A stretch of 64,000 nt of DNA from Pseudolabrys sp. (lineage in GTDB: Bacteria > Pseudomonadota > Alphaproteobacteria > Rhizobiales > Xanthobacteraceae): contig JALHNV010000001.1 of NCBI GenBank assembly GCA_022843325.1, positions 1 through 64,000 on the forward strand, given 5' to 3'. Both the position numbers and the translations under genes were made by a program. Within the stretch, counting starts at the first letter, position 1. Each line of letters starts with the position of its first letter. This document shows, one piece after another, positions 49,446 through 64,000 of the stretch. A model generated the notes under the pieces. That model made no database searches, was not told the origin of the DNA, and saw nothing but the letters and a program-made list of their open reading frames with translations.

Positions 49446-50636
49446 CTAGTGGCTCGCCGTCGCGCGTTTATGGCCCACCAGCAGCGGCCCGAATGACGCG
49501 GCGAAGCCGAAAAACGCGATGCACCACCCCAGCACAGTGAGTTGCAGAAGCGGCTCGCTCCAGGCCGGGGATAGCGAAGCGCCGATGCGCGCCAGCGCGG
49601 CGGCGACGACAGCCGCATAGATGATTTGCGTCATCACGGAAGCGACCAGCGCATTGCCGGTATGGCCGAGGCTGGCGCGCGTCATCACAGCCAGCGTCAT
49701 CGTGCCGGCGGCGCCGACGGTCCAGGCGTGAATACCGGCACCCGCCGCGACAAGATCGAGCGCGGCCGCGCTCGACAGCAGAAAACCCAGCGGCACGAAG
49801 GCGTAGCCCACATGCAAAATGAGAACCAGCCGATCGCGCACCGTGCGATCACCGGCCCAGCGCGCCAATCGCAGCAATTGCGCCAGACCGGCGACGCAGA
49901 GCGCGGCGGCGGTTTCGGGCCCCACGGGCTGGATCAGCCACAGCGCCAAGGCGGCGCCGCTAAACGCGATGATGCTCAGGTCGATACTTCCCATCGGCAC
50001 CGGCAGCCGGCCGGGATTTTCGCGTGCCAGCCAGTTGCGCGTGAAGCTCGGCACGATGCGGCCGCCGATCACCGAGATCAGCAGCACCATGGCGGCGATA
50101 CCGATGCGGACGCCGTACTCGGCACTGCCATTGAAATGCGATTCGAGGTGGAAGGCGATGTTGCCGACAAGCAGCAGGCTTACCAGGCCGACGACCTTCA
50201 GATTTCCCCAATTCTTGCCCGCGAGAATCTCGCGCGTGATCGCCGCGATCAGCAATGCCATAAACGCGGCATCTAAGAGAGCGGCGGCAAGCCAGCCGAT
50301 CTCGGCGGACAGCGTCACGGCAATGCGGCCCGCCAGCCACACCAGAACGAGCGTCAGGAGCGGCATACCTTGAATGGGCAGCCGTCCCGTCCAATTGGGA
50401 ATGGCCGTCAACAGAAAACCGGTCACCACCGCCGGCAGATAGCCGTACAGCATTTCATGCACATGCCAGTCGATGGCGCCGAAGGCCGTGCGCAGTTGCA
50501 GTTCGCCGTGGAAGACCGGCAGCCAGGCCAGCACCGCAAGCCCGGCGTAGATCGCACCGAGCAGGAAAAACGGCCGGAAGCCGTAGGACAGCAAGACCGG
50601 GCCGGCGTAGGTCTTCAAGCGGGGAACGGCGTTCAT
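49446..50636 (-). CDS. nnrS: NnrS family membrane protein
   Basis: A 396-residue haem/copper-containing membrane protein with about twelve hydrophobic segments. Signature blocks are LLSYGFRPFFLLGAIYAGLA, the WHVHEMLYGYLPAVVTGFLL stretch with its conserved His residues, NWTGRLPIQGMPLL, and the MTRASLGHTGN segment. NnrS helps cells tolerate nitric oxide and related nitrosative stress during nitrate/nitrite respiration. Its position after narI-ppiC fits protection against NO made downstream of nitrate reduction. ATG 50636 begins the conserved part. Confidence 0.92.
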   Translation of the reverse strand: MNAVPRLKTYAGPVLLSYGFRPFFLLGAIYAGLAVLAWLPVFHGELQLRTAFGAIDWHVHEMLYGYLPAVVTGFLLTAIPNWTGRLPIQGMPLLTLVLVWLAGRIAVTLSAEIGWLAAALLDAAFMALLIAAITREILAGKNWGNLKVVGLVSLLLVGNIAFHLESHFNGSAEYGVRIGIAAMVLLISVIGGRIVPSFTRNWLARENPGRLPVPMGSIDLSIIAFSGAALALWLIQPVGPETAAALCVAGLAQLLRLARWAGDRTVRDRLVLILHVGYAFVPLGFLLSSAAALDLVAAGAGIHAWTVGAAGTMTLAVMTRASLGHTGNALVASVMTQIIYAAVVAAALARIGASLSPAWSEPLLQLTVLGWCIAFFGFAASFGPLLVGHKRATASH

Positions 50637-50656
50637 GTCATTTCCAGGCTGCCGGC

Positions 50657-50932
50657 TTAAGGGCGCAGCGCGTGTTCGAAGGCGCGCTTGAGACACACCG
50701 CGCCGGGGTCGGGCGAGCGGTTGAGCAGGCCCATCAAGGTGATCCACTCTTCGTCGGTCGCTTCAGAGGCGTAGCGCCGCACCGCGCCCGCGACATAGGC
50801 CGGCAGATCGAGGCCGTCGGCCTTGGCCTGCTCGCGCATGGCCGCCAGCATCGGCAGATCGTTAACGCTGAGAATGGCTTCGGTGGCGGCGGTTTCGTCG
50901 CCGAGTGAAGCCAAGAGGTCACCGAGCATCAT
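50657..50932 (-). CDS. Small nar-cluster protein of unknown function (91 aa)
   Basis: An acidic, helical cytosolic protein with conserved-looking segments LPMLAAMREQAKADGLDLPA and YASEATDEEWITLMGLLNRS. It lies between ppiC and nnrS with only 12 and 20 bases of spacing, so it is certainly in the operon. I know no family name. The DLPAYVAGAVRRYASEATD segment resembles short proteins found beside narI in other alphaproteobacteria. Confidence 0.7.
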   Translation of the reverse strand: MMLGDLLASLGDETAATEAILSVNDLPMLAAMREQAKADGLDLPAYVAGAVRRYASEATDEEWITLMGLLNRSPDPGAVCLKRAFEHALRP

Positions 50933-50944
50933 GGTGTTAATCCC

Positions 50945-51775
50945 TTAATGAACCCGATGCGCATCGGCACCGGCAAGGTCGATGCCTTCGATCGTCGCCG
51001 CCGATATCAGCCGCGCGATGTATTGGGCGTCGGCCCGCCGGCGTACGCTCTCGTTCAGATAGTCGGCGATGCGGCCGGCGACGAGTTCGAACGGCAGCAA
51101 CTTGCCGTCGTGCTTGTGGTCGAGCCGGATGATGTGAAAGCCGTAGCGCGTCGCCACCGGCTCCGCGCACATGTCACCCGGCGACAGCGCGACCAGCGCC
51201 TTCTCGAATTCCGGTGTGGTCTGGCCTGTGGTGATCTGTCCGAGATTGCCGCCCTGGGCGGCGGATGAACAGCCCGAATACGCGCCCGCCAAGGTCGCAA
51301 ACGATTCCGGCCGTTCGACCAAGGCGGCCAGCACACCTTCCGCGTCGGCAAGCGCCCGCGCATAAGCCTCCTTGTCGGCGGGCAAAGCCGCAAACAGGAT
51401 ATGCGCGGCTTCGTAAATGTCGGGCGAGCGGAATTGTGCCTGGTGGCGCTCATAATAGCGCCGGCAGGTCGCATCGTCCGCCTGCGGCACAGTGACCTCG
51501 CGATCGATCAGCCCGCGCATGATCGCTTCCTCGTCGGTCTCGCGGCGGCCGTCCTCGGTAAGCGGCTGCGGCGCGATATTGAGGCGGCGGGCCTCCTGCA
51601 TGAGAAGCTCCCGAATGACGAGCGCCCGCGCGGCCTGTTGCCATGCCGCGATCGGCTTGCCGGCCGGATGGTGCTGCATTTCGCGCACGATCTCGTCGCG
51701 CGCGATGGCGATACCGTTGACCGTGACATTGACGGGCCGCCCGGTGGGCAGTTGTGCGTGAACCGAACAGCTCAT
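50945..51775 (-). CDS. Parvulin-type peptidylprolyl isomerase (PpiC/NifM-like) in the nar operon
   Basis: A 276-residue protein. The N-terminal SurA/NifM-like helical region (about 1-125) is followed by a parvulin domain (about 130-235): EAAHILFAALPADKEAYARA, then GGNLGQITTGQTTPEFEKAL and TRYGFHIIRLDHK. No signal peptide is evident, so it is probably cytosolic and may help fold or mature the nitrate reductase, in the way NifM serves nitrogenase. ATG 51775 overlaps the TGA of narI (ATGA), which couples their translation. Confidence 0.85.
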   Translation of the reverse strand: MSCSVHAQLPTGRPVNVTVNGIAIARDEIVREMQHHPAGKPIAAWQQAARALVIRELLMQEARRLNIAPQPLTEDGRRETDEEAIMRGLIDREVTVPQADDATCRRYYERHQAQFRSPDIYEAAHILFAALPADKEAYARALADAEGVLAALVERPESFATLAGAYSGCSSAAQGGNLGQITTGQTTPEFEKALVALSPGDMCAEPVATRYGFHIIRLDHKHDGKLLPFELVAGRIADYLNESVRRRADAQYIARLISAATIEGIDLAGADAHRVH

Positions 51776-52530
51776 CGCGGATACTCCGCCGGGGTGGCAG
51801 GGGTCGGTACGGGGCCTTGTTTGGGCGCGGCCGGCTGGCCCCGGCGTCCGGTGCTGCGCACGATCTGGTAGCCACTGCGCCCGAGATACCAGATCGGCGC
51901 ACTCCAGATGTGCACGAGCCTGGTGAACGGCGTGATGAGGAACAGCGTGAGCCCCAGCACAATGTGCAGCTTGTAGATGAAATACGCGTCGAGGATCAGA
52001 TCCGCCGCCCGCGGGTTGAGGCTGTAGAGGCCCTGCGCCCAGCCCATGAATTTCAGCATTTCCTTGCCGTCGAGGTGGTCGATCGTCCAGATCGTCGTCA
52101 TCAGCCCCAGGCCGATTTGCACCCACAGCAGCGCCAGGACCGCAAGATCGGCCCATGAGGACGTTTTTCGGATGCGCGGGTCGATCAGCCGGCGATGCAA
52201 CAGCAAGGTGCAGCCGATGAACGCAATCACGCCCGCTATGCCGCCGACAACCAGGGCCATGATCTGCTTGAAATCATGAGTGACGCCGAGCCCGTCAAAG
52301 ACCCCGATCGGCGTGAGCAGGCCGATGAAATGCCCGACCAGCAAGACCAGAATGCCGACATGGAACAGGTTCGAGCCCCACATCATCTGCCGCCGGCGAA
52401 GAAACTGGCTCGATTTGGCCCGCCAGGAGTATTGCTCGCGGTCGAATCGAATGATGCTGCCGAGGATCAGCACGGTGATACAAACGTAAGGGTACCAGCC
52501 GAAAAGCAGGTAGTTGACGACTTCGCGCAT
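51772..52530 (-). CDS. narI: Respiratory nitrate reductase gamma subunit NarI
   Basis: A 252-residue cytochrome b membrane subunit with five transmembrane segments. Haem-ligand His residues lie in LFHVGILVLLVGHFIGLL and YKLHIVLGLTLFLITPFTRL, followed by VHIWSAPIWYLGR. It takes electrons from quinol and passes them to NarH. It has an alphaproteobacterial-type Pro-rich C-terminal tail. It starts at 52530, 10 bases after narJ. Confidence 0.94.
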   Translation of the reverse strand: MREVVNYLLFGWYPYVCITVLILGSIIRFDREQYSWRAKSSQFLRRRQMMWGSNLFHVGILVLLVGHFIGLLTPIGVFDGLGVTHDFKQIMALVVGGIAGVIAFIGCTLLLHRRLIDPRIRKTSSWADLAVLALLWVQIGLGLMTTIWTIDHLDGKEMLKFMGWAQGLYSLNPRAADLILDAYFIYKLHIVLGLTLFLITPFTRLVHIWSAPIWYLGRSGYQIVRSTGRRGQPAAPKQGPVPTPATPAEYPR

Positions 52531-53260: not shown

Positions 53261-54779
53261 TATACGATCTCCATCGGGTTCCGGACGCGTTTGTTCGAGC
53301 CGAACAGATTGGTCTCGGTGTTGCCGGTCGCGCAGCCGTTGCCGAACGAGAACCCGCACGAGCCGCGCAGCTCGAGCGCGTCTTCGCTGGTTTCACGGTG
53401 CGCGGTCGGGATGACGAAGCGATCTTCGTAGTTGGCGATCGCCATGTACTTGTACATGTCTTCGATTTCCGCGCCGGTGAGGCCGACACGCTGCGCGATC
53501 TTCTCGTCAATCAAACCGTCGACCGTTTTCGCCCGCATATAGGCGCGCATGGCGAGCATGCGCTCCAGGCCGAGCGCGACCGGCTCTTCCTTGCCGGCGG
53601 TCAGCAGGTTGGCGAGATACTTGAGCGGGATGCGCAAAGAGCGCACGTCCGGCATTTCGCCGTCATGGCCGATCTTGCCGGCGGCGGCAGCCGATTGAAT
53701 CGGCGACAGCGGCGGCACGTACCAGACCATCGGCAGCGTGCGGTATTCCGGGTGCAGCGGGAACGCCACCTTCCATTCCATCGCCATCTTGTAGACCGGC
53801 GAACGGCGCGCGCCTTCCAGCCAGTTGTCGGCGATGCCGTCGCGGCGCGCCTGCTCGATGATGGCCGGATCGTGCGGATTGAGGAAGATGCCGAGCTGGG
53901 CCTCGTACAGGTCCTGCTCGTCCGGCGTGCTCGCGGCTTCCTCGATGCGATCGGCGTCATAGAGCACGACGCCGAGATAGCGGATGCGGCCGACGCAGGT
54001 TTCCGAGCACACGGTCGGCTGACCCGCTTCGATGCGCGGATAGCAGAAGATGCACTTCTCGGATTTTCCGCTCGACCAGTTGTAATAAATCTTCTTGTAG
54101 GGACAGCCGGACACGCACATGCGCCAGCCGCGGCACTTGTCCTGATCGATCAGGACGATGCCGTCCTCCTCGCGCTTGTAGATGGCGCCTGACGGACAGG
54201 CGGCGACGCAGGTTGGGTTGAGGCAGTGTTCGCACAGCCGCGGCAGATACATCATGAAGGTGTTTTCGAACTCGCCGTACATTTCCTTCTGCACGCCTTC
54301 GAAATTGTAGTCCTGCGAGCGCTTGGCGAATTCGCCGCCGAGAATTTCCTCCCAGTTCGGGCCCCACTCGATCTTTTCCATGCGTTCGCCGGAAACTAAG
54401 GAGCGCGGGCGGGCGGTCGGCATCGCCGTCATTTCCGGCGACTTCTGCAGGTGCTCGTAGTCGAGGTGAAGGGTTCGTAATAGTCGTCGATTTCCGGCAG
54501 ATCGGGATTGGCGAAGATGTTGGCCAGCACGCGCCATTTCGAGCCGATGCGCGGCTCGATCTTGCCGTTCTTTTTGCGCTTCCAGCCGCCGTTCCAGCGC
54601 TTCTGGTTTTCCCAGTCCTTCGGATAGCCGATGCCGGGCTTGGTTTCGACGTTGTTGAACCAGGCGTATTCCATGCCTTCGCGGCTGGTCCAGACGTTCT
54701 TGCAGGTGACGGAGCAGGTGTGACAACCGATGCACTTGTCGAGATTGAGCACCATCGCGATTTGAGCGCGGATCTTCAT
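53260..54779 (-). CDS. narH: Respiratory nitrate reductase beta subunit NarH, with an apparent frameshift
   Basis: The iron-sulfur electron-transfer subunit, about 506 residues if the frame is restored. The first 105 residues (RAQIAMVLNLDKCIGCHTCS onward to DDYYEPFT) read from ATG 54779, and the rest (DYEHLQKSPEM onward) reads in another frame. Restoring one A between 54464 and 54465 on the plus strand recreates the expected EPFTFDYEHLQ. All four cluster motifs are intact: CIGCHTCSVTC, CEHCLNPTCVAACP, CRGWRMCVSGCP and CIFCYP...CSETC. The ATG overlaps the narG stop (ATGA). It is either a real inactivating deletion or a sequence error. Confidence 0.9.
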
Positions 54780-57700
54780 TCTGCGGCCTCCAAAGTGTTC
54801 GAAGTGCTGGTCGCGACGGGCAAGGTTTCCGGTTGATCGGCAGCCGGCGTATCGAGCCAGTCGACTTTCGACATCTTGCGGACGATGACGAATTCGTCGC
54901 GGTTCGATCCGACGGTGCCGTAATAGTTGAAGCCCCAGGACTGCTGGGCGTAGCCGCCGATCATGTGGGTCGGCTTGAGCACGGCGCGGGTAACCGAATT
55001 GTGGATGCCGCCGCGCAGGCCGGTCATCTCGGAGCCGGGCACGTTCACGATCTTCTCCTGTGCGTGATACATCATGCACATGCCCTGCTTGACCCGCTGC
55101 GACACCACCGCGCGCGCCACCAGCGCGCCGTTGGCGTTGAACGCCTCGATCCAGTCATTGTCGACGATGCCGGCCGCCTTCGCGTCGATCTCGCTGATCC
55201 ACACGCAAGGGCCGCCGCGCGACAAGGTCAGCATCAGCAGGTTGTCGGTGTACGTGGAGTGAATGCCCCACTTCTGGTGCGGCGTGATAAAATTCAGCAC
55301 CACCGCGTCATTGCCGTTCGGCTTGCGGTCGATCACCGGGTTGACCGACTTGGTGTCGATCGGCGGGCGATAGACGCAGAAGCCTTCGCCGAAGGCACGC
55401 ATCCACAAATGATCCTGATAGAGCTGCTGACGGCCGGTCAGCGTGCGCCACGGGATCAATTCATGCACGTTGGTGTAGCCGGCGTTGTAGCAGACCTTTT
55501 CCGATTCCAGGCCGGACCAGATCGGCGACGAGATAATCTTGCGCGGCTGCGCCACGACATCACGGAAACGGATCTTCTCGTCTTCCTTCGGGACCGCGAG
55601 ATGGGTGTGCTCAAGCCCGGTGAAGCCGCCGAGCGAAGCCCAGGCCTTGACCGCGACTTCGCCGTTGGTTTCCGGCGCCAGGCTGAGAATGACCTCGCAG
55701 GCGTCGATGTCGCTGTCGATTCGGGCAAAGCCCTTGGTCGCCCCCTCCTCCAGCACGACACCGTTGAGCTGCTTCAGGAAGTCGACCTCATGCTCGGTAT
55801 TCCATGCCATGCCCTTGCCGCCGTTGCCGAGCTTGGCCATCAGCGGTCCGAGCGAGGTAAAGCGCTTGTAGAGGTTGGGATAGTCGCGCTCGACCACCGT
55901 CACCGCCGGCATGGTCTTGCCGGGGATCGGATCGATCTCGCCTTTCTTCCAGTCCTTGACATCGAAAGGCTGCGCAATCTCGCCCGGCGTATCGTGCATG
56001 ATCGGGGTCAGCACCACGTCCTTCTCGACGCCGAGCACTTCGGGCGCGACGGCAGAAAACGCCTTGGCGATACCCTTGTAGATGTCCCAGTCGCTGCGTG
56101 ATTCCCACACCGGATCGATCGCCGCCGTGAGCGGATGAATGAACGGGTGCATATCGGAGGTGTTGAGGTCGTTCTTCTCGTACCAGCTCGCGGTCGGCAG
56201 AACGACGTCCGAATACATGCAGGTGGTCGACATGCGGAAGTCGAGCGTCACCAGCAGGTCGAGTTTTCCTTCCGGCGCCTTGTCGTGCCAGACCACATCG
56301 GATGGCTTCTTCTTGCCGTCCTCGCCGAGGTCCTTGCCCATGACGCCGTGCTTGGTGCCGAGCAGATGCTTGAGGAAATACTCGTGGCCCTTGCCCGACG
56401 CGCCGAGCAAATTCGAGCGCCAGATGAACATGTTGCGCGGCCAGTTGGACGGATTGTCCGGGTCGTCGCAGGAGAGCTTGAGCTTGCCGGACTTCAGGTT
56501 CGCGGCGACGTAATCCTTGGCTTCCAAGCCCGCGGCGGCGGCGTCTTTCGACACCTGCAACGGATTGGTCTGTAACTGCGGCGCTGACGGCAGCCAGCCC
56601 ATGCGCTCGGCGCGCACGTTGTAATCGATCAACGCGCCATCCCACGGACCGGCCGGCGCGGTCGGCGAGAGAACTTCCGACACGTCGAGCGTCTCGTAGC
56701 GCCACTGATCGGTGTGCGCGTAGAACGCCGAGGTCGAATTCATCTGGCGCGGCGGACGGCCCCAATCGAGGCCGAAAGCGAGCGGCAGCCAGCCCGACTG
56801 CGGGCGCAATTTTTCCTGGCCGACATAATGTGACCAGCCACCACCGGATTGACCAACACAACCGCACATCACCAGCATGTTGATGATGCCGCGATAGTTC
56901 ATGTCCATGTGGTACCAGTGGTTCAGGCCGGCACCCACGATCACCATCGAGCGGCCCTTGGTCTTCTCGGCGTTGAGTGCGAATTCGCGCGCGGTCATGA
57001 TGATCTGGTCGCGCGGCACGCCGCTGATCTTCTCTGCCCAGGCCGGCGTATAAGGCTGTATGTCATCATAGTTCTTGGCGAGATGTTCGCCGCCGAGACC
57101 GCAATCGACGCCGTAGTTGGCGACAAACAGGTCATAGACCGAGGCCACCACCGCCTCGCCTTCGACCAGTTGCAGCTTCTTCATCGGCACATTGCGCACC
57201 AGCACGCTCGGATGATCGGTGCCCTGGAAGTGGTCGTGTTCGCGGTTGCCGAAGTACGGGAAGCCGACGGCGGCGACGCCGTCCTTCACGTCCTTCAGCG
57301 ACAGGCGAAGCTTCGTCTCCTTGCCGTCGGACGCCTGCTCCTGGAGATTCCACTTGCCCTTTTCGCCCCAGCGGAAGCCGACCGAACCCTTCGGCACAAC
57401 CACCGCGCCGGTCGTTTCGTCGTAGGCAACCGTCTTCCATTCCGGATTGTTGTCTTCGCCGCAGCCCTTGATGAAGTCGGAGGCGCGCAGGAAGCGCTCG
57501 GGCACAAAGTGATCGCCCTGTTTCACCAGCCGCGCCAGCATCGGCATGTCGGTATATTGCCGCGCGTAGTCCTGGAAGTACTTGGCCTGCCGGTCGACAT
57601 GGAATTCGCGCAGGATGACATGGCCCATGGCCATGCCGAGCGCTGCGTCGGTGCCCTGCTTCGGTGAAATCCACAGATCGGCGAATTTCGAGGCCTCGGA

Positions 57701-58552
57701 ATAATCCGGGCAGATCACGACGCTCTTGGCGCCCTTGTAGCGAACCTCGGTATAGAAGTGCGCATCGGGCGTCCGCGTCTGCGGCACGTTCGATCCCCAC
57801 AGGATCAGAAATCCGGAATTGTACCAGTCGGCCGATTCCGGCACGTCGGTCTGTTCGCCCCAAGTCTGCGGCGACGCCGGCGGCAAATCGCAATACCAGT
57901 CGTAGAACGACATGCAGACGCCGCCGAGCAGAGACAGATAGCGCGAGCCCGCGGCGTAGCTCACCATCGACATCGCGGGGATCGGCGAAAAGCCGAACAC
58001 GCGATCGGGGCCATAGGTCTTGGCGGTATAGGCATTCGCCGCCGCGATAAGCTCGTTGACCTCGTCCCAGGTCGAGCGGACGAAGCCGCCGAGGCCACGC
58101 TTTTCGACGTAAGCCGCGCGCTTTTCCGGATTCTCGACGATCGACTTCCAGGCCGCGACCGGCGTCATCAGCACGCGCGCCTCGCGCCACAGCTTGAGCA
58201 GGCGCGAGCGCACCAGCGGATATTTCACGCGGTTGCCGGAATAGAGATACCAGCTGTAACTGGCGCCGCGCGCGCAGCCGCGCGGCTCGTGGTTCGGCAG
58301 ATCGGGCCGCGTGCGCGGATAATCGGTCTGCTGCGTTTCCCAGGTGACGATGCCGCCCTTTACGTAGATTTTCCAAGAGCACGACCCGGTGCAGTTCACG
58401 CCGTGCGTCGAGCGCACGATCTTGTCGTGCTGCCAGCGCTTGCGGTAGCCATCTTCCCAGCGCCGGTCTTCGCTGGTGGTGATGCCGTGACCGTCGGAGA
58501 ACGGCTCGCTGGCGCGGCGGAAAAACGTCAAACGATCGAGAAAATGGCTCAT
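54776..58552 (-). CDS. narG: Respiratory nitrate reductase alpha subunit NarG
   Basis: A 1258-residue Mo-bisMGD subunit that reduces nitrate to nitrite on the cytoplasmic face. The N-terminal FS0 cluster ligands are visible in STHGVNCTGSCSWKIYVK and HEPRGCARGASYSWYLYS. The Mo-Asp lies in the PESADWYNSGFLILWGSN region, followed by VPQTRTPDAHF. The length matches the E. coli enzyme (1247). It is intact, with no frameshift seen. It follows narK by 12 bases and overlaps narH by 4. Confidence 0.96.
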   Translation of the reverse strand: MSHFLDRLTFFRRASEPFSDGHGITTSEDRRWEDGYRKRWQHDKIVRSTHGVNCTGSCSWKIYVKGGIVTWETQQTDYPRTRPDLPNHEPRGCARGASYSWYLYSGNRVKYPLVRSRLLKLWREARVLMTPVAAWKSIVENPEKRAAYVEKRGLGGFVRSTWDEVNELIAAANAYTAKTYGPDRVFGFSPIPAMSMVSYAAGSRYLSLLGGVCMSFYDWYCDLPPASPQTWGEQTDVPESADWYNSGFLILWGSNVPQTRTPDAHFYTEVRYKGAKSVVICPDYSEASKFADLWISPKQGTDAALGMAMGHVILREFHVDRQAKYFQDYARQYTDMPMLARLVKQGDHFVPERFLRASDFIKGCGEDNNPEWKTVAYDETTGAVVVPKGSVGFRWGEKGKWNLQEQASDGKETKLRLSLKDVKDGVAAVGFPYFGNREHDHFQGTDHPSVLVRNVPMKKLQLVEGEAVVASVYDLFVANYGVDCGLGGEHLAKNYDDIQPYTPAWAEKISGVPRDQIIMTAREFALNAEKTKGRSMVIVGAGLNHWYHMDMNYRGIINMLVMCGCVGQSGGGWSHYVGQEKLRPQSGWLPLAFGLDWGRPPRQMNSTSAFYAHTDQWRYETLDVSEVLSPTAPAGPWDGALIDYNVRAERMGWLPSAPQLQTNPLQVSKDAAAAGLEAKDYVAANLKSGKLKLSCDDPDNPSNWPRNMFIWRSNLLGASGKGHEYFLKHLLGTKHGVMGKDLGEDGKKKPSDVVWHDKAPEGKLDLLVTLDFRMSTTCMYSDVVLPTASWYEKNDLNTSDMHPFIHPLTAAIDPVWESRSDWDIYKGIAKAFSAVAPEVLGVEKDVVLTPIMHDTPGEIAQPFDVKDWKKGEIDPIPGKTMPAVTVVERDYPNLYKRFTSLGPLMAKLGNGGKGMAWNTEHEVDFLKQLNGVVLEEGATKGFARIDSDIDACEVILSLAPETNGEVAVKAWASLGGFTGLEHTHLAVPKEDEKIRFRDVVAQPRKIISSPIWSGLESEKVCYNAGYTNVHELIPWRTLTGRQQLYQDHLWMRAFGEGFCVYRPPIDTKSVNPVIDRKPNGNDAVVLNFITPHQKWGIHSTYTDNLLMLTLSRGGPCVWISEIDAKAAGIVDNDWIEAFNANGALVARAVVSQRVKQGMCMMYHAQEKIVNVPGSEMTGLRGGIHNSVTRAVLKPTHMIGGYAQQSWGFNYYGTVGSNRDEFVIVRKMSKVDWLDTPAADQPETLPVATSTSNTLEAAE

Positions 58553-58564
58553 GTTTCCTGTCCC

Positions 58565-61306
58565 TTATTCGGCGGGTTGCATGGCGGAGGGCGGCAGCGA
58601 GCCACCACGCTCGATGTCGTGCAGCAGACCGCCGCGCCGGGTGTAGAACCACCAGGTGATGGCGATGCAGGTGACGTAGAAGCCCATGAAGCCCCACAGC
58701 GCCATCTCCGGTCCGCCGGTCAGCGAGATCGAGGTGCCGTAGCTCTTCGGGATGAAGAAGGCGCCGTAGGCCGCCACCGCCGAGGTGAAGCCGATGATCG
58801 CCGCCGATTCCATCTCGGCCTGCTTCTGGCGGACGGCGTTGCTCATGGCCGGCTCGAGCCGGAGGAGTTCGGCGCGCATGATCGCCGGGATCATCTGGAA
58901 GGTCGACGCATTGCCCACGCCGGTGGCAAAGAACAACAGCATGAACATCGCAAAGAAGCCCCAGAAGGCGTGCGGCTGATCCTTGATGCCAAGGAAGTAC
59001 AGCACGCCGCCGACCGCCGCGATCATCAGCGTAAAGACCCAGAAGGTGACGCGGCCGCCGCCATAGCGATCCGAAAGCCAGCCGGTCGCGGAGCGAGACA
59101 GCGCGCCGACCAACGGTCCGAAGAAGATGAACTTGAGCGAGTCGACCTGAGGAAACATGGTCTTGGCCAGCAGCGGGAAGCCGGCCGAGTAGCCGATGAA
59201 AGAGCCGAAGGTGCCGGTGTAGAGCCAGCACATCAGCCAGTTATGCTTGCGCTTGAAGATCACCGCCTGATCGGCGAACGACGCCCGCATGTCGGCGATG
59301 TCGTTCATGCCGAACCATGCCGCCGTGGCCGAGGCCGCGATGAACGGCACCCAGATGAATCCGGCGTTCTGCAGCCAGAGCCGGGTGCCGTCGTTCGCCA
59401 CCTGCGGTTCGCCGCCGAGCCAGCCGAACACGCCGGCGACAATGACCAGGGGGATCACGAATTGCACGACGCTGACGCCGAGATTGCCGAGCCCGGCGTT
59501 GAGCGCCAATGCGTTGCCCTTCTCCGCCTTGGGGAAGAAGAAGCTGATATTGGCCATCGACGAGGCGAAATTGCCGCCGCCGAAGCCGCACAGCAGCGCC
59601 AGCGCCAGAAAGAAGATGTAGGGCGTATCCGGGCTCTGGACCGCCAGACCGATACCGACCGCCGGGATCATCAGCGACCAGGTCGAGACCGAGGTCCACA
59701 GCCGGCCGCCGAAGATCGGCGGCATGAAGGAATAGAAGATGCGCAAGGTCGCGCCGGACAGGCCGGGAATTGCCGCCAGCCAGAACAACTGGTCGGTCGT
59801 GAATGTGAAGCCGACCGCCGGCAGCTTGGCGACGACCACCGACCACACCATCCAGACCGCGAAGGCGAGCAGCAAGGCCGGGATCGAGATCCACAGATTG
59901 CGGCGTGCGATGGCGCGGCCTTTGCTCTCCCAGAAAGCCGGATCCTCCGGCTTCCACTCCTCCAGCACATGGCCGGAGAGTGCGCCGATGTGCTTTTCCT
60001 CGTGGATCGGCTGCATCTCCGGAAACTGCGGCAGCTTGTTCAGGGCCGGCTCAAAGGCCTCGCGCTCCATGCGGCGGATGGCGAAGTGCATCCAGGCCAG
60101 CGAGATGGCGGCGACGAGGAACAGCAACATGAAGCAACTGGTCCAGATGCCGGTGAGGTCGTTCAGCACGCCGAACACGATCGGCAGGATGAAGCCACCG
60201 AGGCCGCCGATCATGCCGACCAGGCCGCCGACCGCGCCGACGTTCTGCGGGTAATAGACCGGGATGTGCTTGTAGACCGCGGCTTTTCCCAAGCTCATGA
60301 AAAAGCCGAGCACGAAGATCAGCGCGGTGAAGGTGACGACGCCGGTCGCCATATGGAAGGTGATCGGGCCCTTGATGCCCTCGACCGTGTAGGTGGTCGG
60401 AGGATAGGCCAGAATGAAGGTGACCAGCACCGAGACGCCGAACATCCAGTACATGATGCGGCGGGCGCCGTATTTGTCCGACAGGTGACCGCCATAGGCG
60501 CGGAACAGACTGGCGGGGATCGAATAGGCGGCGCCGATCATGCCGGCCGTCGTGATGTCCAGGCCATAGACACCGATCAGGTAGCGCGGCAGCCACAGCG
60601 CCAGTGCGACGAAGGCGCCGAAGGCGAAGAAATAATAGAGCGAGAAGCGCCAGACCTGAATGTTCTTAAGCGCGTCGAGCTCGAGCCAGGCGCTGCGCGG
60701 GCGTTCGCCCTTGGCGCGGCGCGCCATCTCGACCGGGTCTTCCTTGGTGGCGAACCAGAAGACGATGCCCATCAGCGCGATGGCCACAGCCCAGACCTGC
60801 GCGGTGACCTGCCAACCATAGGCCACCATGACGAAAGGCGCGATGAACTTGGTCACCGCCGCGCCGACATTGCCGGCGCCGAAGATGCCGAGCGCGGTGC
60901 CCTGTTTCTCCGGCGGGTACCAGCGCGACACATAGGCAATGCCGACCGCGAAAGAACCGCCGGCTATGCCGACGCCAAGCGCCGCGATCAGGAACTGCGT
61001 GTAGGTCTCCGCGTAGGTCAATAGGAAGGTAGCGAGCGCCGCCGCCAGCATGACCACGGTGTAAACGCGGCGGCCGCCGTACTGGTCGGTCCAGATGCCG
61101 AGAAAAATGCGCACCAGCGAGCCGGTGAGAATGGGGGTGCCGACCAAAAGACCGAATTGCGTTTCGTTGAGTCCGAGATCCTCCTTGATCTGGATGCCGA
61201 TGATCGCGAACAGGGTCCACACCGCGAAGCAGACGGTGAAGGCAATCGTGGACATCCAGAGCGCGCGGCTTTGGCCCGTGACGCTGGCAACCGGCCGGTC
61301 TTGCAT
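58565..61306 (-). CDS. narK: Fused NarK1-NarK2 nitrate/nitrite transporter
   Basis: About 913 residues made of two complete MFS domains. The first (about 15-425) carries GIWTDQYGGRRVYTVVMLAA and NarK1-like GGSFAVGIAYVSRWYPPEKQ. The second (about 470-890) carries the nitrate-signature GFGGGNFASSMANISFFFPK and GNALALNAGLGNLGVSVVQF. The fusion matches that known from Paracoccus, where one half is a nitrate/proton symporter and the other a nitrate/nitrite antiporter. The start ATG 61306 is placed after GGGGG; ATG 61330 is also in frame. It is the first gene of the nar operon. Confidence 0.93.
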   Translation of the reverse strand: MQDRPVASVTGQSRALWMSTIAFTVCFAVWTLFAIIGIQIKEDLGLNETQFGLLVGTPILTGSLVRIFLGIWTDQYGGRRVYTVVMLAAALATFLLTYAETYTQFLIAALGVGIAGGSFAVGIAYVSRWYPPEKQGTALGIFGAGNVGAAVTKFIAPFVMVAYGWQVTAQVWAVAIALMGIVFWFATKEDPVEMARRAKGERPRSAWLELDALKNIQVWRFSLYYFFAFGAFVALALWLPRYLIGVYGLDITTAGMIGAAYSIPASLFRAYGGHLSDKYGARRIMYWMFGVSVLVTFILAYPPTTYTVEGIKGPITFHMATGVVTFTALIFVLGFFMSLGKAAVYKHIPVYYPQNVGAVGGLVGMIGGLGGFILPIVFGVLNDLTGIWTSCFMLLFLVAAISLAWMHFAIRRMEREAFEPALNKLPQFPEMQPIHEEKHIGALSGHVLEEWKPEDPAFWESKGRAIARRNLWISIPALLLAFAVWMVWSVVVAKLPAVGFTFTTDQLFWLAAIPGLSGATLRIFYSFMPPIFGGRLWTSVSTWSLMIPAVGIGLAVQSPDTPYIFFLALALLCGFGGGNFASSMANISFFFPKAEKGNALALNAGLGNLGVSVVQFVIPLVIVAGVFGWLGGEPQVANDGTRLWLQNAGFIWVPFIAASATAAWFGMNDIADMRASFADQAVIFKRKHNWLMCWLYTGTFGSFIGYSAGFPLLAKTMFPQVDSLKFIFFGPLVGALSRSATGWLSDRYGGGRVTFWVFTLMIAAVGGVLYFLGIKDQPHAFWGFFAMFMLLFFATGVGNASTFQMIPAIMRAELLRLEPAMSNAVRQKQAEMESAAIIGFTSAVAAYGAFFIPKSYGTSISLTGGPEMALWGFMGFYVTCIAITWWFYTRRGGLLHDIERGGSLPPSAMQPAE

Positions 61307-61442
61307 AGTCAGCCCCCACATCCCGTCCATTGCGAACGGCGTAGGCGACCAAAGCGCGGCGCCGACCGCAATGCTTTGAGGTCGATCAAATTATCGGACG
61401 CTGTACTTGGCTTTTTTATAGCTATACTAAAACATCAGAGTA

Positions 61443-61530
61443 TTGATAATGTACAATTCATGTTTTGATAATATACAATTACTGCTTTGATGATCGTATA
61501 ATCGTGACTTGATAAATATCAAGAAACGCT
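61443..61530. promoter_or_regulatory. Four 22-bp repeats headed by TTGAT half-sites; last is a perfect FNR-type box
   Basis: TTGAT occurs at 61443, 61465, 61487 and 61509, exactly 22 bases apart. The last is TTGAT-AAAT-ATCAA (61509-61522), the exact FNR/ANR/NNR consensus. Copies 1 and 2 read TTGATAATGTACAATT and TTGATAATATACAATT; copy 3 is weaker (TTGATGATCGTATAAT). The array sits between narK and the divergent Crp/Fnr regulator. The spacing of about two helical turns would put four protein dimers on one DNA face. Confidence 0.8.
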
Positions 61531-61579
61531 GCGGGCGCGTGACTTTAGATTGGATCGTCCGCCGCCGGAGTTCGCTCAT

Positions 61580-62269
61580 ATGCGCCAAGCCGAATATCAC
61601 CTCGTGCGTGCGCTGCCGTTGTTCGAAAATGTCAGCGAAAAATATTTCGACGAACTGATGGGTTCGGCGCTGATGCAGCGATTTCCACAGGGCCTGACAT
61701 TGATCCGCGAGGGCGAACTCCCCGACTTTCTGCATATCGTGGTTGAGGGATCGGTCGAACTGTTCGCCAGCCATGACGGGCACGAAACCGTGCTCGACAT
61801 TCTGGAGCCGGTAACGACATTCATTCTCGCCGCGGTAATCCGCGACGAGGTTTACCTCAAATCCGCACGCACGTTGACGCCGGCACAGATTCTCATGATT
61901 CCAGCGCCGGGCGTGCGCGGCGTGTTCGACCGCGATGCGGCCTTCGCCCGCGCCTTGGTGAACGAACTGGCCCTACGATATCGCTGCGTCGTGCGCTCGC
62001 TCAAGAATGAAAAACTGCGCAACAGCAAGGAGCGGCTTGCGAACTGGATCTTGCAGGAAGATGCGCATCAAGGAAACAAGCGGCAGATAACGCTGGCGAT
62101 CGACAAACAGACGCTGGCGTCGCGCCTTGGAATGGCACCGGAGAACCTGTCGCGTAATTTGGCAAAACTTTCGAAGTACGGCGTCACCAAGTCCGGGACA
62201 ACATTGATCATCGACGACATTGCTGCTCTTAGACAATTCGCCAAGCCGAATGGCTTGATCGATCAATAG
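61580..62269 (+). CDS. Crp/Fnr family transcriptional regulator (NarR-like)
   Basis: A 229-residue regulator. The cNMP-type beta-barrel (about 10-125) contains GLTLIREGELPDFLHIVVEG. The long dimer helix comes next, then a C-terminal winged helix with the recognition helix PENLSRNLAKL. It retains the E-x-x-S-R pattern that reads TTGAT in FNR. There is only one Cys (RYRCVV), so it cannot carry the FNR 4Fe-4S cluster; ligand sensing (nitrite, NO, haem) as in NarR or DNR is likely. GGAG precedes ATG 61580. It is divergent from narK and next to the TTGAT array. Confidence 0.9.
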   Translation: MRQAEYHLVRALPLFENVSEKYFDELMGSALMQRFPQGLTLIREGELPDFLHIVVEGSVELFASHDGHETVLDILEPVTTFILAAVIRDEVYLKSARTLTPAQILMIPAPGVRGVFDRDAAFARALVNELALRYRCVVRSLKNEKLRNSKERLANWILQEDAHQGNKRQITLAIDKQTLASRLGMAPENLSRNLAKLSKYGVTKSGTTLIIDDIAALRQFAKPNGLIDQ

Positions 62270-62758: not shown

Positions 62759-64000
62759 CTAAAGGCGTTCGGAACTCCTCGCACTAGCCAAGACCCGGCT
62801 GAGCTCCTCGAGACGAAATGGATTGCGGAGCACCCGAAATTCACGCAGCGCATCGTTACCCGCTTCACTAAAACCAGTAGCAAGCACCACCGGCATTTGA
62901 GGATGTGACCTCCTGACTGCACGTGCCAAACCGAGTCCGTCCAGGTTGCCAGGCATGACAATATCACTGAGGACCACGTCTATGCCGTTTCTCTCGATTT
63001 CGGCAAGGGCAGCCTCAGCGCTCGAGGCCCATCGAATCGAATAACCGAGTTCTTCAAGCAAAAGCGATGTAGCACTGGCTACTTCGGGGTTATCTTCGAC
63101 GAGAAGTATCGTGCCGCTCAGATGACGGACAGGTTCGTCGACCTCCGAGGCAAGTGGCGGAGCTTTGGCCCGCGGAAGGTAAATCGTCACTTTTGTACCT
63201 TCGCCGAGTGTGCTCTCGACTTTCACCGTGCCACCCGCTTGGTGCGCGAAGCCGTGTACTTGCGACAGACCCAGCCCGGTGCCCTTTCCCATCGGCTTCG
63301 TTGTGAAAAACGGGTCAAAAACCTTTTCTAAAATGTCGGGAGGAATGCCTTCACCGCTGTCACATACGCAAATTGCAACGTAATCCTTGTCTCCCAACCT
63401 GGTATTAGAGGTCGTAATCTCGATGACCCCACCTTTCGGAACGGCGTCTCGCGCGTTCACCACAAGATTCACCAGAGCGATCTCGAATTCCGCGGAGTCA
63501 ACAATCACCGGCCAGGCCTCATCCGGCACTTGGATATTAAGTTCCGCATGACCAGCACCGCTAACCAAGACCTCGCGGACAGCCTGGACACGATCGGGTA
63601 AATACACAGATTCTGGATTGACCGCCTGACGGCGCGAAAACGTCAGTAATTGACGGGTTAAATTAGCCCCGCGTTGAGCGGCAACTTCTATGGATTGGAG
63701 GGCACGAACACTCTTTTCATCCACAACGGCTTTTTTCAGCGTCAGAATGTTGCCGCTGATAATCATGAGAAGATTGTTGAAATCATGGGCAACCCCACCC
63801 GTTAGATGCCCGAGCGCATCCATCTTTTGCGACTCGGCGAGCTGTTTCTGTAGCTTCTCCAAGTTTATCTGGGCATCGCGACGCTCTGTGACATCGCGAG
63901 TAATTTTCGCGTAGCCAATTAGTTCGCCATCGTCGTCGCGGATGGCGTCGATAATGACGCTAGCCCAGAAATAAGAGCCATCCTTACGAACGCGCCAGCC
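62759..64000 (-). CDS. PAS hybrid histidine kinase / response regulator (partial, runs off right edge)
   Basis: The 3' 414 codons of a gene whose start lies beyond the window. Visible in order are the end of a PAS/PAC domain (GWRVRKDGSYFWASVIIDAI, then IGYAKITRDVTERRDAQ), a coiled linker, and the phosphoacceptor H-box GGVAHDFNNLLMIISGN. These are followed by the N-box LVNLVVNARDAVPKGG, the G boxes DSGEGIPPD and GTGLGLSQVHGFAHQ, and a C-terminal receiver (ILLVEDNPEVASATS, VVLSDIVMPGNLDGL). The family is common in Rhizobiales. The signal is unknown; it is not evidently linked to the nar genes. Confidence 0.9.
   Translation of the reverse strand, partial: GWRVRKDGSYFWASVIIDAIRDDDGELIGYAKITRDVTERRDAQINLEKLQKQLAESQKMDALGHLTGGVAHDFNNLLMIISGNILTLKKAVVDEKSVRALQSIEVAAQRGANLTRQLLTFSRRQAVNPESVYLPDRVQAVREVLVSGAGHAELNIQVPDEAWPVIVDSAEFEIALVNLVVNARDAVPKGGVIEITTSNTRLGDKDYVAICVCDSGEGIPPDILEKVFDPFFTTKPMGKGTGLGLSQVHGFAHQAGGTVKVESTLGEGTKVTIYLPRAKAPPLASEVDEPVRHLSGTILLVEDNPEVASATSLLLEELGYSIRWASSAEAALAEIERNGIDVVLSDIVMPGNLDGLGLARAVRRSHPQMPVVLATGFSEAGNDALREFRVLRNPFRLEELSRVLASARSSERL

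Follow-up and report, generated by a model that had tools for sequence, protein, structure and literature searches.

The gap between narK and a divergently transcribed Crp/Fnr-type regulator gene in the window (the whole stretch of 64,000 nucleotides that was analysed) carries the word TTGAT at 61443, 61465, 61487 and 61509, at a step of exactly 22 bp. The question raised by this locus is why the words are so spaced and what would occupy them. A sequence-only reading had described a four-site array of regulator dimer sites, ending in a perfect palindrome at 61509. Here the sites were scored with a matrix, the region was compared with those of relatives, and the possible occupants were weighed. 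Coordinates of the features are given in Table 1.

Table 1. Positions of genes, boxes, half-sites and repeat units in the window
Feature	Coordinates	Strand	Remarks
narG, nitrate reductase alpha subunit, downstream of narK	54776..58552	-	TIGR01580 2199.3 bits, cut-off 1084.15
narK, double MFS nitrate/nitrite transporter	58565..61330	-	TIGR00886 543.1 bits, cut-off 311.7
narK-proximal box TTGAGGTCGATCAA	61376..61389		1 mismatch; rank 2 in window by matrix
Left half-site TTGAT, slot -66	61443..61447	+	dyad slot 61443-61456
Two tandem 22-bp units, 18/22 identical	61443..61486	+	22-column alignment gap in 4/4 aligned relatives
Left half-site TTGAT, slot -44	61465..61469	+	dyad slot 61465-61478
Left half-site TTGAT, slot -22	61487..61491	+	dyad slot 61487-61500
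Regulator-proximal full palindrome TTGATAAATATCAA	61509..61522		lattice anchor; perfect TTGAT-N4-ATCAA
Candidate regulator-promoter -10, TTTAGAT	61544..61550	+	class II distance from 61509 box; weak match
FtrB/NarR-type Crp/Fnr regulator	61580..62269	+	ATG at 61580; NCBIfam PRK09392 FtrB 295.2 bits, cut-off 211

Collection of related regions

Regulator loci (n = 162) were collected from relatives in the order, genus and class and from the best 80 named-genome matches. Loci without a divergent narK (24), with a narK start that could not be placed (6) and near-copies (24) were dropped, which left 108 regions. A regulator-proximal box with at least 9/10 matches was found in 104 of the 108 de-duplicated regions, and a narK-side box of at least 9/10 in 86 of the 104 regions so anchored. 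Lattice counts were made on these 86 alphaproteobacterial narK/regulator regions with both boxes. Slots were defined as dyads 22, 44 and 66 bp from the regulator box (3 x 86 = 258 slots), and a slot was counted as occupied when an exact half-site lay within 1 bp of it. The two outer boxes are 90-93 bp apart in 13 of the 86 regions, 112-117 bp in 50 and 133-137 bp in 17 (the 90, 114 and 136 classes); the remaining 6 have distances of 100, 101, 109, 110, 111 and 120 bp.

The 86 regions were clustered on 44 positions outside the slots, and 72, 62 or 37 representatives were kept. A quick regulator tree was made from 85 rows (one of the 86 was too short), with 27 of its 82 inner branches weakly supported. 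A class-wide search for narK gave matches in 58 of 385 genomes, and 30 loci were examined; 15 of these, from genomes without an FtrB match at E 1e-40, served as a small control. Loci from plasmid records were examined in 10 of 31 records. The scoring matrix was built from 188 orthologous boxes, with the window excluded from training.

Boxes and half-sites in the window

The four positions and their exact phasing were verified. When the whole window was searched on either strand for chains of three TTGAY at steps of 10 to 60, only a step of 22 yielded one. The pattern TTGAY-N17-TTGAY-N17-TTGAY had two overlapping matches, both at this array, and was absent elsewhere in the assembly (3.88 Mb, 137 contigs, 94% complete); the reversed control gave 0. 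The 22-bp phasing of the half-sites in the window is not due to chance.

With the matrix, the 61509 palindrome scored 25.8 bits and was the best top-strand site in the window, in agreement with its earlier description as perfect. The sites at 61443 (TTGATAATGTACAA) and 61465 (TTGATAATATACAA) and the site at 61487, with GTATA as its right half, each have a perfect left half of 10.6 bits and right halves of -4.9, -4.9 and -7.9 bits, respectively. Because these right halves score negative, all three are half-sites, and not the palindromes of a tandem full-site FNR promoter. The near-identity of the first two sites and the degeneracy of their right halves had been correctly noted. The phasing of the four sites thus stands, but the array has five: the narK-proximal box had been overlooked. 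The narK/regulator gap holds two divergent promoters, with one full box each.

The regulator and neighbouring genes

The regulator contains the Pfam domains cNMP_binding and HTH_Crp_2. It scored below cut-off with the Caulobacter-type FtrB model NF050815 (205.9 against 300 bits); having passed PRK09392 and failed NF050815, it was called an FtrB/NarR-type protein and not the Caulobacter equivalog. Its gene is divergent from narK of the nar operon, and it is 46% identical over 220 residues to its counterpart at that place in Paracoccus pantotrophus. From this identity, and from a stretch (L238) that matches published narK/narR upstream sequences, the regulator is, as judged by sequence and place, of the NarR type. 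The E-x-x-S-R recognition helix is kept, with E185, S188 and R189 invariant across 20 aligned proteins. Its 226 residues include a single cysteine, and the 20 aligned proteins have 0-2, so the protein lacks the [4Fe-4S] cysteines of FNR proper; on both points the sequence-only reading was right. Among the best 80 named-genome matches, the closest locus is labelled Pseudolabrys (84% identity).

The more probable translation start of narK is residue 9 of the longest frame, an ATG at 61306 with a GGGG stretch ahead of it; most relatives align only from residue 6-20 of that frame. The double narK is a single frame of ~800-1050 aa in many relatives and of ~430-500 aa in others (L208-L237 and other matches), so the fusion is not universal. 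Behind narGHJI, two frames on the minus strand (49446-50747 and 50945-52156) presumably resemble NnrS and a parvulin-type isomerase. Annotated NnrS genes were seen near the regulator in Paracoccus zhejiangensis and Azospirillum brasilense. Convergent with the regulator gene, a frame at 62759-64000 on the minus strand, cut by the end of the window, reads as a PAS/histidine-kinase/receiver hybrid.

Conservation of the 22-bp lattice

Measured from the regulator box, left halves TTGAY peak at -22 (38/104), -44/-43 (27/104) and -66 (7/104), and right halves RTCAA at -13 (16/104), -35/-34 (19/104) and -57/-56 (17/104). The latter are the right-hand positions of the same 14-bp dyads as -22, -44 and -66. 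Exact half-sites fill 112 of the 258 slots, against a mean of 5.8 (sd 2.5, maximum 13) in 300 shuffles of the spacers, and the 22-bp spacing is thus kept in orthologous narK promoters. Half-sites per region numbered 1.30 on the lattice and 0.01-0.07 at 17 shifted phases. At least one exact interior half-site was found in 71 of the 86 regions, at least two in 36 and all three in 5, the window included; none lay on the lattice in 15. Relatives that keep only the site equivalent to 61509 are therefore not the rule.

Among the 37 representatives, 50 of 63 isolated half-sites had a dyad no more than 1 bp from a multiple of 22 (8.6 expected); over all 86 regions the figure was 114 of 142 (19.4 expected). 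None of the isolated half-sites in the 37 representatives came that close to -33 or -55, which means that the lattice step is not one helical turn. In a circular test on exact half-sites, periods of 21.5-22 were best and 21 was nearly as good, and for the exact step we therefore rely on the sharpness of the peaks at -22, -44 and -66. When half-sites with 4/5 matches were admitted, an occupied slot was present in 83 of 86 regions, but six shifted phases also reached 25-56 of 86; this looser count was taken as supportive and exact half-sites were used throughout.

Outside the slots, the median identity of pairs of regions is 27%, near that of unrelated DNA. After clustering, an exact half-site was still found at -22 in 51-53%, at -44 in 27-34% and at -66 in 21-27% of representatives, with a mean of 0.4% and at most ~3% at non-lattice offsets. 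By this comparison, it is the half-site and its place that are conserved, and not the surrounding sequence.

A fourth slot at -88/-87 was considered and rejected: ~30% of regions match there with one mismatch and only 0-3% exactly, and the signal was attributed to an A-rich motif near the narK box. This AAATAA-like motif is conserved in both the 114 and the 136 class (for example in L025, L039, L050 and L054), some 30 bp upstream of the narK box, at -79 to -74 and -102 to -97 from the regulator box, respectively. It might be an alpha-CTD (UP) element or an A-tract. Separately, AGTA precedes the narK-most left half-site in L001, L004, L006, L008, L009, L013, L016, L018, L021 and L026, nine of them of the window's genus. 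Genome-wide use of such arrays was also rejected. The pattern TTGAY-N17-TTGAY-N4-RTCAA had 38 matches in 297 genomes of the order (3 when reversed), 5 of them at narK/regulator promoters; three of the other 33 were inspected and were common to one genus, at the end of a coding frame.

One half-site per slot

Both halves are exact in only 1 of the 112 occupied slots. At -22 the regulator tree calls for five or more exchanges between left and right halves (at least 4/5 matches), and likewise at -44. Each slot may be read as the site of one symmetric dimer, since such a dimer on a fixed dyad accepts either half. The right-right-right pattern is frequent and belongs partly to one family group (Paracoccaceae and Roseobacteraceae). 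Selection against the second half was dropped as an explanation, because 1/112 is about what is expected without selection for it; the missing half has 1.79/5 matches, only slightly more than the 1.31-1.63 of shifted controls. Of the earlier description as an array of regulator dimer sites, the phased multi-site arrangement held up, but the conserved interior unit is one half-site per slot, left or right. At the level of sequence, these comparisons establish the lattice, its conservation and the rule of one half per slot.

Proposed occupation of the lattice

That many distant relatives share the same 22-bp spacing suggests an ordered row of regulator along the control region rather than binding at one or two spots. 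We lean towards cooperative loading of Crp/Fnr dimers, most likely of FtrB/NarR, onto half-sites that lie between two class II boxes. The narK/regulator gap would then be a divergent promoter region with a lattice of Crp/Fnr dimer sites, in which the two outer TTGAY-N4-RTCAA palindromes would serve as class II activator sites. Interior dimers would stand every 22 bp from the regulator-proximal palindrome, each with one good half-site to the left or right of its dyad. The likely occupant would be the divergently encoded FtrB/NarR, perhaps sharing the outer boxes with an FNR-type protein. A dimer would nucleate at the regulator-proximal palindrome and its neighbours would load side by side, cooperatively and on the same face of the DNA; as each interior site is weak alone, such loading would need protein-protein contacts. 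Occupancy would climb steeply with active regulator and give a sharp autoregulated nitrate switch. From the patterns described here we infer the identity of the binder, its cooperativity, the class II positions in this organism and the effect on transcription. Counting against this reading are the 15 of 86 regions with no exact interior half-site, the inexact interior matches of several Paracoccus species, the FtrB loci that have two boxes but empty slots, the T at the -11 place in the 90 class, the small size of the control, the recent duplication in the window, to which slippage in 22-bp steps may have contributed, and repression by E. coli FNR from a comparable upstream distance, each described below or above. 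A conserved half-site lattice predicts stepwise cooperative occupation in 22-bp units, and searches for full palindromes would overlook the interior sites of such promoters.

More tentatively, and at somewhat less than an even chance in our judgement, FtrB/NarR may form a regular one-dimensional oligomer on DNA that starts from a palindrome and grows over single half-sites by one dimer every 22 bp, across the divergent nar control region, and the region may evolve through gain or loss of whole 22-bp slots. To our knowledge, no filament-like action has been described for the Crp/Fnr family. If true, such an oligomer would explain a steep nitrate switch by a regulator without an iron-sulphur cluster.

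The lattice could also be real but belong to an FNR/FixK-type oxygen sensor, or to both proteins, FtrB/NarR being confined in its action to one or both of the outer boxes. We consider this unlikely, though deserving of weight. The boxes match the FNR consensus. In the accessible text of PMC7713065, the narU box of Sphingopyxis granuli belongs to genes that are lowered in a double fnr mutant, and Paracoccus nar requires both FnrP and NarR according to the portions seen of PMC8139620 and PMC3541799. The narK loci without a close FtrB speak against it: they keep the narK box (12/15), yet in the four with two boxes, a small control, the slots are empty in all. Where FtrB is present with two boxes (n = 12), 8 loci have an occupied slot and 4 have none (L221, L228, L229, L231); in L221 the second box is close to narK, which makes the slot test unfair for that locus. 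A second full box within 150 bp was found in 3 of the 12 loci that have a narK box but no close FtrB, against 9 of 11 with FtrB, and isolated half-sites per 150 bp numbered 0.67 against 1.36. Seven of the 15 loci without a close FtrB carry a distant FtrB-like match beside narK. A link between the lattice and the presence of FtrB is thereby partly established, on a small control.

Among 31 loci without a divergent or placeable narK, 8 had no regulator box, 13 had a box with empty slots and 10 had at least one exact half-site. In narK-less FtrB paralogues of the window's group (L005, L029, L031, L103, L104) the slots are empty except for one half-site in L103. In these paralogues a full box remains, 77-92 bp ahead of the gene; L029 and L104 seem to be a single locus. 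One genome (G013) has three FtrB-type genes.

Promoter positions bear on the direction of the effect. Both outer boxes are probably centred ~41.5 bp upstream of transcription starts, as class II sites. On the narK side, the base 37 positions from the box start, the place of -11A, is A in 72% and 59% of the 114 and 136 classes, respectively, which fits a class II narK promoter; in the 90 class it is T in 85%, not A. On the regulator side, a -10-like hexamer was found at offset 35-36 in only 10 of 104 regions. A box at a comparable place is the narU box of S. granuli, centred at -42.5 of the mapped start in the accessible text of PMC7713065. With both outer boxes taken to lie at -41.5, the regulator would have slots near -63.5, -85.5 and -107.5. 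In E. coli, FNR acts as a repressor when it is bound at -85 to -95, upstream of a class II site (PMC11264516, in the part consulted), which makes damping by the interior dimers a serious alternative to synergy. The class II boxes would fill first and activate, and the half-sites would fill at high regulator and repress, giving bell-shaped autoregulation. Slots at ~-85.5 of the regulator and at ~-88 to -90 of narK (90 and 114 classes) would, with outer boxes at -41.5, lie within the repressing range, and weak interior sites would be the last to fill. However, slots would also lie at -63.5 and -107.5, and the nearest slot in the window is at ~-108 of narK. We regard damping as distinctly unlikely.

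Cooperative loading was also set against the history of the region. The window has one extra 22-bp unit relative to four aligned relatives (L004, L006, L013 and L011), and the alignment marks its two tandem units as a recent, lineage-specific duplication of a single slot. Two of the relatives, L013 and L011, belong to the 90 class and show another 22-column gap closer to narK. The distance class (88-94, 109-117, 133-138) changes at least 14 times on the tree of 85 regulators, and the starred branches alone force 5 changes for the middle class. Slippage between repeats can supply such 22-bp steps; as half-sites are retained after them, the steps were kept in register. It would be improbable, all the same, for the array to be a relic of 22-bp slippage duplications with no function beyond the two palindromes. 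The duplication in the window is clear (18/22 identical, 22-column gap) and region length does vary in ~22-bp steps, but half-sites persist at slots only, in representatives with spacers as dissimilar as unrelated DNA, and left and right halves alternate on the same dyad, a swap that copying of a fixed unit does not give. It is very improbable that the TTGAY words are bound by another protein such as IHF, whose consensus includes TTGAT, or that they act as -35 hexamers, which TTGAC resembles. No YAA is seen 5-7 bases ahead of the left halves, TTGAY and RTCAA replace each other at mirrored places on shared dyads, and a fixed 22-bp step has no reason among -35 hexamers.

Comparison with known systems

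No description of a 22-bp lattice was found in the titles and opening abstract lines listed by the literature searches, or in the accessible parts of PMC7713065, PMC8139620, PMC3541799, PMC1274295, PMC9409073, PMC4741004, PMC3751524 and PMC11264516; with subscription papers thinly covered, this silence is weak evidence of novelty.

The Paracoccus narK/narR region, with NarR as a nitrate/nitrite-responsive Crp/Fnr protein, has the same gene order as the window. The P. denitrificans stretch (L238) contains three sequences listed upstream of Pden_4237 narK and Pden_4238 narR in the portion seen of PMC9409073. Like the paired boxes of the window, two full palindromes are present in P. denitrificans, P. 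pantotrophus, P. versutus and P. kondratievae, 136 bp apart. Unlike the window, these four have no exact interior half-site; 4/5 matches occur at two slots in the first three and at one in P. kondratievae. As far as their sequences tell, the species used for work on NarR have retained the outer boxes, with no more than weak sites between them. P. zhejiangensis and P. alcaliphilus each have a pair of exact right halves; Rhizobium jaguaris and Tistrella mobilis have one or two exact half-sites in the interior, and P. aminovorans has one, counted from a poor box (8/10). The locus from the plasmid record of Azospirillum brasilense lacks both boxes, and no narK is annotated next to the regulator there.

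The narU-ftrB region of S. granuli TFA has a comparable layout, with a divergent narU operon and a NarR-like ftrB, and three Fnr boxes upstream of narU (PMC7713065, accessible text). These are described there as separate palindromes, and that text mentions neither a lattice nor half-sites, unlike what is seen in the window. The tandem-FNR promoters of E. coli (yfiD, melR derivatives) combine a class II box with an upstream dimer whose position decides the effect, in the part consulted of PMC11264516. In those promoters both sites are full and the upstream one is either at -93.5 or positioned by design, whereas the window has half-sites between divergent boxes.
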